DNA of 53,112 bases from Bacteroidales bacterium (lineage in GTDB: Bacteria > Bacteroidota > Bacteroidia > Bacteroidales > P3): NCBI GenBank assembly GCA_024400505.1, contig JAKSMP010000009.1, positions 1-53,112 of the forward strand, given 5' to 3'. The notes under the pieces are model-generated. The model saw only the letters and a list, made by a program, of their open reading frames with translations. It ran no database searches and had not been told where the DNA came from. This document shows positions 49,826 through 53,112 of the stretch, in pieces. Each line of letters opens with the position of its first letter. The stretch's first letter is position 1. The position numbers were made by a program, and so were the translations under genes.

Positions 49826-51067
49826 CTACAGAGCACCATCATCACTCACCTTTCTTTTATCGTTAAGATGCTCCAATATTCTGCCCAGATGATATTCCAC
49901 CACTTTATTCTCTTCATCAAACACTATATCTGTTATCTGAATCAGCGCTGTCTCCCTATCGGTGGCATAGCCCACGCCAAGCCTCAACACATCGTAGGGG
50001 CGCAAGTAACGCTTTCCGTCAGTCGGGTCAAGATAAGTGTACCTACTGATTGTAGTTTGTTTCAATTGCCTGTATTCAACAGTTTTCTCGCCACTCATTA
50101 TTTCATCAAAATAGCGTCTCTCTATGGGCAATGTCAGCACTCTTAGCCCAGTCAAATCATAGCGCGATCTTTCCACTCTCACCACACGCTCCAAACATTG
50201 CATCTCGGCATTGTACCTATAGTTCACAATGCTTCTATCCACTATTTTTTTCATTATTGCATCCACCACAGCCAATGGTGCCACATACCATTCTTTCGGT
50301 TCGTGCAGTTGACCTTTCAAATCCTTCACCTTTACATGAAACCGAGCCGCTTCAAGCACTTGATGAACCAATCCTTCAAACATCTGTGAGTTCATATTCA
50401 CCACCTTGTAACTTGCCACAACTTCCACCTCGGCCATCAGATATGTAGGATCTTGCGCTGCGTTAGCAATTCTTTCCTCCACCGTATTGGTTGTGAATCC
50501 TATCTTGAACAAGTCTTTCTGACTGGCTATAGCTGCCACTTGAGACAATGAACGAAGAACATAGATGAACCCCGTAACCTGGTCGTCCTTGGTCAGATCA
50601 GCATTCTTTGCAAGTGATGCATTCTGTTCTTCCACGGTGTTGGTGATTATGTAGCCATTCAGCGACACATTCTTTCTCAATGTCGATAAATATTCGTCCT
50701 GCTCAGTTCCATTTTCATAAATACAGCGAGTTCTTGCATTCTGCATACCGTTGGAACCTTTTGAATACTTGCCGATGCTTTCCAAATAAACAACAACACC
50801 ATCCACCACATAGAAATTGCCTTCGCTGAAATTCGCTGCTTTGCCCGACTTCAGCAGCAGCCGTTTGCCCTCTTTCAGTTCTTGTCGCACTTGGGCAAAC
50901 AAAGGCTCATAGTCCTCAAAGTTCTCACAATGTTTCTTGTGCGCCACATAGTCGGCTTTTTTCTTCCCTTTCATCACCTTTTGCATGTCATCCGGAAAAT
51001 CAAACAAGGCAGCTTGTGTCTCGTCAATTTCCAACAAAGGATCATTCAAAATATCGTCAATATCCAT
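49826..51067 (-). CDS. GIY-YIG (T5orf172-type) nuclease with C-terminal ASCH-like domain
   Basis: The 413-residue protein has several parts. An N-terminal motif contains DILNDPLLEID (5-15). A conserved region of unknown fold (about 60-145) contains NFYVVDGVVVYLESIGKY. The GIY-YIG domain of T5orf172 type (about 165-270) has GFIYVLRSL as the GIY strand, FKIGFTTNTVEERI as the YIG strand and Glu231 in FEGLVHQVLEA as the likely catalytic acid. An ASCH-like domain (about 308-395) contains TLPIERRYFDEIMSGEKTVEYR. It should cut or nick nucleic acid, with ASCH recognising RNA or a modified base. It is the last gene of an operon with a helicase, three bases after the small protein. No experimentally known system with this exact set is recalled. 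Confidence 0.83.
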   Translation of the reverse strand: MDIDDILNDPLLEIDETQAALFDFPDDMQKVMKGKKKADYVAHKKHCENFEDYEPLFAQVRQELKEGKRLLLKSGKAANFSEGNFYVVDGVVVYLESIGKYSKGSNGMQNARTRCIYENGTEQDEYLSTLRKNVSLNGYIITNTVEEQNASLAKNADLTKDDQVTGFIYVLRSLSQVAAIASQKDLFKIGFTTNTVEERIANAAQDPTYLMAEVEVVASYKVVNMNSQMFEGLVHQVLEAARFHVKVKDLKGQLHEPKEWYVAPLAVVDAIMKKIVDRSIVNYRYNAEMQCLERVVRVERSRYDLTGLRVLTLPIERRYFDEIMSGEKTVEYRQLKQTTISRYTYLDPTDGKRYLRPYDVLRLGVGYATDRETALIQITDIVFDEENKVVEYHLGRILEHLNDKRKVSDDGAL

Positions 51068-51070
51068 GTG

Positions 51071-51331
51071 CTACAATATATGATTTGTGTCGTAAGGTTC
51101 CAACAATTCTTTTTCTTTGCGCAATGCTGCCAAGGCTCTGCACAATATCATTTCTGCCAAACTGCCATCGCTTTGTGGTTCCCTACCATTCTCTGCCATC
51201 CATTCTGCCACAACCTGCAACTTTTGCACCTTGTGGTCATTGGCAGTCAGTGGTTGGGGCTTGGGTTTCACATCGGCCAGCAGCGGGTCGGCAAATATGT
51301 CTAATAGTTCTTGAGGCCAATCCATAATCAT
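51071..51331 (-). CDS. 86-residue helicase-associated small protein
   Basis: The ATG at 51331 overlaps the helicase stop (ATGA), so translation is coupled. The N-terminus carries ELLDIFADPLLADVKPK, which shares the DIxxDPLL pattern with the first residues of the GIY-YIG protein. The second half (about 33-80: VVAEWMAENGREPQ, then LAEMILCRALAALRKEKELLEPYD) recalls the helical W/R-P type helicase-associated segments that other proteins of this kind carry fused. It may be a detached adaptor that joins helicase and nuclease. A shorter start at 51325 is possible. Function is inferred. Confidence 0.7.
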   Translation of the reverse strand: MIMDWPQELLDIFADPLLADVKPKPQPLTANDHKVQKLQVVAEWMAENGREPQSDGSLAEMILCRALAALRKEKELLEPYDTNHIL

Positions 51332-53112
51332 TCTTCATTATAGTCCAATCCCATCATTTTTCTTATCTTCAAATTCTTCAGCTTCTGATATGCAGCTGCC
51401 AATTCTCGCACCTTGGGGTCGGGGTCGTCCGACGATGGTCGCTTGCCGTCATGCTCTGCCACATATCGTTTGTAAGGACCCTGAAACAGCACTATTGCCT
51501 GCTCCAAACTCATATCAATTTTCATCTCAGCCAGCGTGTCTTGTATCACCCTTAGCACCTCGGCATCCACATTCTTCGACAATATCTCGTATGCTCGCTG
51601 GAATGGGTTGATGGACTCAATCAGATTGATGCTCAACTTGTTCAAATCTATCAGCCGATTGCTCAGTTTCAAGAATCGGTTGCCTTCACTCTCTTGCTCA
51701 CCATCATCAAGCATACTCACATCTATGGCATTGCCCTCTTTATCCACCACCTCGTTGCCTTTAAACAATATGCTCAGCATTGCCCTGTGCGACACAGCTT
51801 CCACATCATCGGCCGATAACTCTGGATAGGTTTCGCGCACTATCTTAGGTATCAACACCTTGGTGATTGTCTCGGCAGTAGTGTTGCCGCTTATGGCTTT
51901 CTGCACTTGCACATTCTGCAATATAGTGGCCATCAAGTCATCCAGTTGTTCGTCCACAATCTGCTTGGCCTTCACGCTACCCAAGGGTTTCAAACCCTCT
52001 ACCACCACAGTGCCCACGCCTGCCATTCCTTCGTGTGCCTCAATATCTTCCAGTGAGGTCTTGAAATTCCACCGCGGAGCCATCACCTGTTCCATCAGCA
52101 GCGAGGCTGTGATGGCTTTCAGAAAATCGTTCACCGCCACTTTCACATCGGCCTGTTCGGCATCGGGCATAGCAATCATGTTGGCAAAGCGGGCCGTGGT
52201 CTTGCCTTCGCAGTCGCGTGTGCAACGACCTATTATCTGCACCACCTCGGTCAGCGACCCTCTCACCCCTACCGTCAGACACATCTCGCACCATGTCCAG
52301 TCAAATCCTTCTTTGGCTGTGCCCAGGGCAATGATGATGTCCATGTCTTCAGCTCGGGTCATATTCTGCAGATAGCCATACACATGATTTCGCACTTCGG
52401 CCGAATCTTCCACCAAGTCAGCCACTTTCAGCAGCCGCCCGTCGGGGGTGCGCAGCTGATAGATGCCATTGTCGTTGCTCACCTCGGTTCCAATATAGCT
52501 CATGATGTCGGCCACTTCTTGATATTTCGACCCCGTGCTGGCACGGCTGTTCACGTTGGGTATATGGATAATGGTTTTCTTGGTAGTGTCCAACACATCG
52601 CCTATGTGGTCGAGATACGAGCCCGAATAGAAATGATACCCCAGCACCAATTTCTTCATATATTTGTATCCGTTCAACTGCTGATAATAGTTGTAGGTCA
52701 CTGGGGTAAATCTTGACTCGTCTTCGGCACGTAACACCGGCACACCATCACCGCGGAAATACGACCCCGTCATAGCCACAATATGGCCAGTAGAGTTGTT
52801 CATCACCCTGCGCACTATGTCACCCAATCCACTCGCCTCATCGGCACTCGTATGGTGAAACTCATCTATGGCCAGCAGACAGTTGTCAAACTGGTTGTCA
52901 TCTATCTGTTTCATACCATTGCGCAATGTAGCATGGGCGCACACCAATATGCGTTCCGGGCATTTGTCGCTCATAAACTCGCAGAATCGGCCTGCCTTGT
53001 CGCGCTCGTTTTCCACATCACACAGGTTGAAGTATGGCTTCACTTTCCAATCATCAAAAAAGCCGTAAGGTTTCAATTCTGTGTCTTTGAACGAGCGGCC
53101 AATGCTCTTTTC
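51328..53112 (-). CDS. SF2 DEAD/DEAH-type helicase, 5' part outside the window
   Basis: The frame is open to the right edge, so the N-terminus with the Walker A motif is not visible. The in-frame TTG at 53074-53076 is not the start. Seen here are motif II DEFHH, motif III AMTGSYFRGD, and the second RecA domain with ALGTAKEGFDWTWCEMCL (motif V) and QIIGRCTRDCEGKTTARF (motif VI, Arg fingers). A long C-terminal region of about 250 residues without known motifs ends in RKMMGLDYNEE. The architecture is that of SSL2/type I and III restriction-like helicases. The gene overlaps the next by four bases. Confidence 0.88.
   Translation of the reverse strand, partial: EKSIGRSFKDTELKPYGFFDDWKVKPYFNLCDVENERDKAGRFCEFMSDKCPERILVCAHATLRNGMKQIDDNQFDNCLLAIDEFHHTSADEASGLGDIVRRVMNNSTGHIVAMTGSYFRGDGVPVLRAEDESRFTPVTYNYYQQLNGYKYMKKLVLGYHFYSGSYLDHIGDVLDTTKKTIIHIPNVNSRASTGSKYQEVADIMSYIGTEVSNDNGIYQLRTPDGRLLKVADLVEDSAEVRNHVYGYLQNMTRAEDMDIIIALGTAKEGFDWTWCEMCLTVGVRGSLTEVVQIIGRCTRDCEGKTTARFANMIAMPDAEQADVKVAVNDFLKAITASLLMEQVMAPRWNFKTSLEDIEAHEGMAGVGTVVVEGLKPLGSVKAKQIVDEQLDDLMATILQNVQVQKAISGNTTAETITKVLIPKIVRETYPELSADDVEAVSHRAMLSILFKGNEVVDKEGNAIDVSMLDDGEQESEGNRFLKLSNRLIDLNKLSINLIESINPFQRAYEILSKNVDAEVLRVIQDTLAEMKIDMSLEQAIVLFQGPYKRYVAEHDGKRPSSDDPDPKVRELAAAYQKLKNLKIRKMMGLDYNEE

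Follow-up and report, generated by a model that had tools for sequence, protein, structure and literature searches.

A contig of a Bacteroidales bacterium (JAKSMP010000009.1, assembly GCA_024400505.1) carries at its end three minus-strand genes that encode a YeeB-type superfamily 2 (SF2) helicase, an 86-residue protein, and a YeeC-type nuclease with a C-terminal ASCH-like domain (Table 1). The window analyzed here is the whole contig, 53112 bases in length, from a 73% complete genome whose 81 contigs total 2.09 Mb. The original prediction, made from the letters of this stretch and its open reading frames (ORFs), described the three genes as coupled, and both its positions and its junctions proved correct: the helicase and small genes overlap by 4 bp (51328-51331), and the small and nuclease genes are separated by 3 bp (51068-51070). 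Both smaller genes start with ATG, and a stop codon ends all three ORFs; the 5' end of the helicase gene is absent because the contig stops at 53112.

Table 1. Features of the three-gene cassette; positions are those of the window.
Feature	Position	Strand	Basis or remark
YeeB-type SF2 (DExH) helicase	51328..53112	-	594 codons present, 5' end open, ~73 residues lost
Helicase motif II, DEFH	52855..52866	-	Residue 83
Helicase motif VI, QIIGRCTR	52216..52239	-	Residue 292
86-residue protein, putative split-off N-terminal YeeC domain	51071..51331	-	ORF and comparison with related loci
YeeC-type nuclease with C-terminal ASCH-like domain, 413 residues	49826..51067	-	ORF, Pfam, phrog_625
T5orf172 / GIY-YIG nuclease domain	50243..50572	-	Pfam; Y169, R199, E231, and H235 invariant in alignment A2
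ASCH-like domain with GxKxxExR (G326, K328, E331, R333)	49865..50155	-	Pfam, phrog_625, alignment

The portion of the helicase that is present matches Pfam Helicase_C and ResIII weakly, under the cut-offs, and a full-length relative clears the cut-offs of DEAD and ResIII. It aligns from residue 74 of the 643-residue helicase of related locus L011 at 50% identity, and the helicase of L040, the closest of those compared, is 70% identical to it. No GxxK[ST] pattern occurs in this portion, and no second helicase piece was found elsewhere in the window's genome. The nuclease matches Pfam T5orf172 over residues 166-275 with an E value of 2.2e-13, and none of the four GIY-YIG residues listed in Table 1 varies among the 63 rows of alignment A2. 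With YeeC as the query, profile searches of the PDB found no relative. Scans of PADLOC, NCBIfam, and PHROGs gave weak matches for the helicase, matches to a small part of the nuclease, and none for the 86-residue protein, so that no named system in these libraries fits.

Gene order was compared across 86 related loci, consisting of the best 80 of 222 loci on genome contigs, found with five ASCH-bearing query proteins, and 6 loci on viral contigs; they are not mutually independent, since at least two pairs come from one metagenome-assembled genome each (L083/L088, L104/L106). Helicase and nuclease are neighbors in 84 of the 86, both misses being contig edges, and the small domain is found in 85, which is more than chance and supports the view of the three genes as a conserved unit with a restriction-type helicase and GIY-YIG nuclease. 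A methyltransferase lies upstream in 69 loci. Sixteen of the remaining 17 have 2,109 bases or fewer before the helicase, and only L117 (Bacteroides ihuae, on the same contig as L041) has room yet no methyltransferase. An even sample of 393 genomes from the order (the order sample) gave a similar picture. It held 24 genomes that match the 413-residue protein, 7 of them only in or near the ASCH part and 17, including the window's own, in the nuclease part; 5 of these 17 YeeC-type matches extend through ASCH. At the other 16 loci, the helicase and small domain are found in 15 and the methyltransferase in 14, the exceptions being L053, at a contig end with none of the three parts, and L041 (B. ihuae), with no methyltransferase. 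The two sets overlap: L117, L121, and L123 are from the same genomes as L041, L042, and L043. Among 99 relatives searched, the window's genome counted, the helicase is present in 3, and the other two also have the nuclease. When the helicase alone was used as the query against genome contigs, 16 stretches matched a pattern and none was confirmed.

The cassette extends well beyond this group. A tblastn search of plasmids with the nuclease returned 230 records, four of which were inspected. In Providencia (L005) and Morganella (L002), a methyltransferase gene is followed by those for a DEAD/DEAH helicase, a small protein, and a GIY-YIG nuclease; L002 also has an insertion sequence behind the methyltransferase. 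A Rhodococcus locus (L003) keeps the order of L005, and there the small domain and the nuclease are joined in one protein. A 7.2-kb Acinetobacter plasmid (L004) has a helicase match in two separate pieces, the small protein, and the nuclease, without a methyltransferase match; transposon Tn2009 is likewise reported to carry genes for YeeB, a small protein, and YeeC without a methyltransferase (PMC9258068). In L106, an 823-residue stop-to-stop frame corresponds to a shortened helicase joined to YeeC, the methyltransferase occurs only in pieces, and the small domain was not found.

The 86-residue protein had been regarded as an adaptor. Of the 85 scorable loci, 23 have the small domain joined in frame to YeeC (one of them, L066, begins at a contig edge and is unsure), and 62 have it as a separate protein. 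On the strength of these sequence comparisons, we read the protein as a split YeeC domain and not as an independent adaptor.

The methyltransferases upstream of these cassettes are of the MmeI type. Those of two relatives match all five of MmeI_N, MmeI_hel, MmeI_Mtase, MmeI_TRD, and MmeI_C, and that of L040 matches the solved MmeI structure 5hr4 at 2.3e-166 from residue 93 on. Among 60 aligned methyltransferases, DPAxGSG occurs in 60 and NPPY in 59, and the N-terminal part of the 60 rows contains no conserved PD-(D/E)xK column set. In an MmeI_Mtase search, all five comparison genomes besides the window's own matched near full length. Bacillus subtilis, one of the control genomes, matches both MmeI_Mtase and T5orf172, a likeness at the level of families and not of aligned proteins.

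These partners are those of a described system. DnmA is reported to make N6-methyladenine (m6A) at GACGAG and to be an MmeI homolog without a nuclease motif, and DnmA, YeeB, and YeeC have been proposed to form a Type I-like restriction-modification system whose gene order is kept in many species (PMC7261158, PMC9973331). The relatives of the window share with this system an MmeI-type methyltransferase that may likewise lack the nuclease motif, an SF2 helicase, and a T5orf172 nuclease in the same order and on the same strand, and the window itself has the SF2 helicase followed by the T5orf172 nuclease on one strand; the window copy differs in that a separate gene encodes the small domain and that YeeC ends in an ASCH-like domain. 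The suggestion that the set was undescribed and without a characterized match is therefore not upheld: its conserved partners, with the MmeI-type methyltransferase upstream in relatives, are a known restriction set.

Other systems are more distant. The methyltransferases of the relatives have the methyltransferase, target recognition, and other domains of the MmeI family (Type IIL), whereas MmeI has its own nuclease (PMC7261158) and a separate helicase and GIY-YIG nuclease are found here. Like EVE and winged helix (wH) GIY-YIG nucleases, the window's YeeC joins a reader-like domain to a GIY-YIG nuclease; those are reported as modification-dependent enzymes (PMC7641849, PMC11037411), whereas in the relatives of the window the fusion stands within a methyltransferase-helicase cluster. 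The likeness to PbeA and Dnd restriction helicases is confined to weak helicase similarity (PbeA, 0.00069 for the window helicase and 3.9e-11 for that of L011; dnd_restrict_1, 0.011), and library scans gave no Pbe or Dnd match for the other cassette proteins. In contrast to classical Type I systems, with HsdR, HsdM, and HsdS, the helicase and nuclease are separate proteins, and none of the three window proteins matched Hsd families in the Pfam, PADLOC, and NCBIfam scans.

What looks new in the window copy is the C terminus of its nuclease. The ASCH-like part that had been noticed there is present: Pfam ASCH matches residues 316-381 at 21.0 bits, against a curated cut-off of 21.2, and phrog_625 matches residues 309-384 at 4.2e-12 and is matched by 44 of the 63 members of A2. 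The ASCH motif has been given as GxKxxxxR (PMC5615036); G326, K328, E331, and R333 are conserved at 98, 96, 94, and 98% in 47 rows. Among the 86 loci, 54 have a C-terminal ASCH, all of them genome loci (54 of 80, and none of 6 viral loci), a proportion that is not a frequency because the queries carried ASCH and the best 80 of 222 loci were kept. In a sample of the phylum, with 13 of 395 genomes matching, nuclease and ASCH were both matched only in the window's genome, G223 (B. ihuae), and G385; the match of G503 runs to profile position 434, across stops.

Two trees bear on how the domain was acquired. The YeeC core tree has 87 rows, of which 55 carry ASCH and 32 lack it; on it the ASCH label needs 8 changes, at least 6 of them forced by well-supported branches. 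A quick tree built from the domain by itself has 76 rows and 100 columns, with good support for 6 of its 69 inner branches; in it, a branch with a Shimodaira-Hasegawa-like approximate likelihood ratio test (SH-aLRT) value of 95 separates the 55 fused copies from the rest. A single ASCH fusion followed by several losses would fit these phylogenies best. Seventeen loci in a Prevotella-rich branch (L099, L101-L116) lack ASCH and end 0 to 8 residues past the YeeC match. Since ASCH has often been lost while the cassette was kept, it is probably not what chiefly separates self from non-self. Downstream of YeeC, L069 and L090 have ORFs of 402 and 263 residues that by eye resemble another ASCH-type protein. 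Structure 4jos, considered as a structural relative of ASCH, was rejected: its E value of 0.28 is at chance level, and it is a nucleosidase.

Stand-alone ASCH proteins provide a further comparison. Among those compared, the closest to the window's domain is that of the 4.3-kb fecal phage record L006, with a tblastn value of 5e-10; the L006 protein clears the Pfam ASCH cut-off at 24.8 bits. A blastp comparison with four subjects gave 1.8e-20 for L006, 1.9e-13 for L037, 9.9e-12 for Bacteroides phage BS-TP2, and 1.2e-8 for Riemerella phage CRP6. The phage gene precedes PAPS-reductase-like and ParB-like genes in 15 of 16 viral-contig loci (the exception is L181), and 14 of these 15 also have a large-terminase match, usually with the other genes just before it. 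L006, BS-TP2, and CRP6 have genes of all three kinds beside ASCH, and the phage loci with PAPS/ParB-type neighbors are L166-L180, L006, L164, and L165. Of ten bacterial stand-alone ASCH loci, three (L030, L037, and L149) have PAPS and ParB matches, and the other seven do not within the short stretches examined. A scan for kin of the L006 protein confirmed nothing. Our guess is that phages with ASCH-PAPS-ParB genes may mark their DNA.

The interval between methyltransferase and helicase in the related loci is a variable slot, occupied by RhuM, Bro-N plus RhuM, SLFN_AlbA_2, or unnamed ORFs. RhuM is matched in 8 of the 86 loci, 7 times in this slot, and SLFN_AlbA_2 in 2 of the 86 (tblastn). We rejected the slot genes as further core parts because they vary between loci; some of the unnamed ORFs are perhaps not genes. 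In the window, positions 1-49226 appear by eye to hold ordinary chromosomal genes, and a search of the window for a tRNA as possible integration site found none.

We consider it likely that the cassette is the restriction half (YeeB, small domain, and YeeC) of a DnmA-YeeB-YeeC type system whose methyltransferase lies beyond the contig end, with ASCH as an accessory reader. The gene set, its order, the domain content, and the conserved catalytic residues, together with the probable single origin of ASCH and its repeated loss, are the observed basis of this reading; translocation, complex formation, and the ASCH ligand are what we infer. The MmeI-type methyltransferase would mark a short non-palindromic site as self, and the helicase would engage incoming DNA that is unmarked. 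The small domain would keep the nuclease attached to the complex, and the GIY-YIG domain would cut the DNA. As an accessory reader, the ASCH-like domain would tune or direct the nuclease; what it recognizes is probably a modified base in phage DNA. ASCH figures in the literature among the putative readers of modified bases (PMC11037411, PMC7641849), its fusion to an HsdS subunit has been interpreted in terms of modification specificity (PMC7641849), and REase-ASCH and DUF3780-ASCH fusions have been mentioned (PMC10853773, PMC12839542).

Several observations weigh against this reading. The upstream methyltransferase is not seen in the window because the contig ends, and the L011 methyltransferase as query found no match in the window's genome, at its 73% completeness; MmeI_Mtase matches there number just three, all partial and on other contigs (best, 5.8e-9). 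The genome of B. ihuae (G223, locus L041/L117; 99% complete, 6 contigs) also gave no match for an MmeI-type methyltransferase, an empty answer that is no proof because the same search tool missed the T5orf172 domains of G385 (47 bits with hmmscan) and of the B. ihuae locus itself. Of the 60 methyltransferases, 39 have a loose D-x(6-20)-[DE]xK pattern within their first 130 residues, so that loss of the nuclease motif is read from the column view and the published accounts. Only 7 of the 63 members of A2 reach an E value of 0.01 with Pfam ASCH, though 47 carry the domain, and no ASCH structure emerged when profiles of YeeC and of ASCH by itself were searched against the PDB. The guanine-plus-cytosine content of the helicase gene (49.6%) is near that of the remaining window (52.2% for 1-49000); the values of the nuclease gene (43.7%) and the small gene (46.4%) speak in favor of the reading. 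Finally, in B. subtilis, deletions of yeeB and yeeC are reported without a phage phenotype, and deletion of dnmA without a transformation phenotype (PMC9973331, PMC7261158). By contrast, in Vibrio crassostreae, deletions of dnmA and yeeB are reported to have increased sensitivity to some phages (PMC9973331).

The B. subtilis data lead to the alternative that the cassette is a non-functional relic, kept or decaying without restriction activity, as has been proposed for that species (PMC9973331, PMC7261158), and some copies do look damaged, such as L106 with its shortened helicase read into YeeC and its methyltransferase pieces. We regard this as unlikely for the window, where the ORFs are intact over their present extent and the junctions are tight; moreover, the catalytic residues do not vary within A2, and the cassette is found in several phyla and on many plasmids.

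It is still harder to credit that the window represents a Type IV-like system, modification-dependent and without a methyltransferase, whose target ASCH picks by reading a foreign base. B. ihuae would be the model for such a system, since its ASCH-form cassette, a helicase and a small-YeeC-ASCH fusion, has no MmeI-type match and is preceded, upstream of the helicase, by SIR2_2, HerA/DUF87, and SLFN_AlbA_2 genes; that some stand-alone ASCH kin are phage or prophage-like proteins, and that ASCH figures among the putative base readers cited above, would also agree with it. However, B. ihuae is alone among the 86 loci in having room but no methyltransferase, and L040, the closest helicase relative among those compared, has a methyltransferase; the search tool behind the negative result can miss, as G385 illustrates, although in that search the five other relatives all matched near full length. 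Least probable of all is that ASCH, instead of reading a DNA base, binds or cleaves RNA or acts on a free nucleoside: a Zymomonas ASCH protein is reported to cut single-stranded RNA (PMC5615036) and the Escherichia coli ASCH protein YqfB to hydrolyze N4-acylated cytosines and cytidines (PMC11037411), but ASCH is here fused to the nuclease of a DNA restriction cluster, and where ASCH is joined to other restriction or BREX-related proteins, it has been interpreted as a binder of modified bases (PMC7641849, PMC12839542).

The preferred reading, that of a restriction half with an accessory reader, can be extended to a scenario that we hold to be improbable, if somewhat less so than a Type IV-like system. 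The nuclease may have captured a phage base reader, fused to it once in Bacteroidales, with the phage ASCH-PAPS-ParB genes perhaps a DNA-marking module. The system would then cut both unmarked DNA, by way of the methyltransferase, and phage-marked DNA, by way of ASCH, and B. ihuae would now be methyltransferase-free and modification-dependent, beside its SIR2/HerA genes.

The kind of cassette is thus already known, and its apparent novelty is the ASCH-like C-terminal domain. The fusion of T5orf172 to ASCH in a DnmA-type cluster looks like the new part; ASCH joined to this nuclease was not met in the literature searched, which excluded most subscription papers. DnmA-YeeB-YeeC clusters are widespread, and the B. 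subtilis cluster, studied in detail, is reported to show no restriction (PMC9973331, PMC7261158). Close relatives with ASCH (L065, L070) and without it (L099) are natural pairs that make a role of the domain in restriction testable. Reading of m6A by ASCH is so far a published prediction without proof (PMC11037411), and the phage neighborhood of ASCH, PAPS-reductase, and ParB genes offers a first hint at what the ASCH ligand may be.

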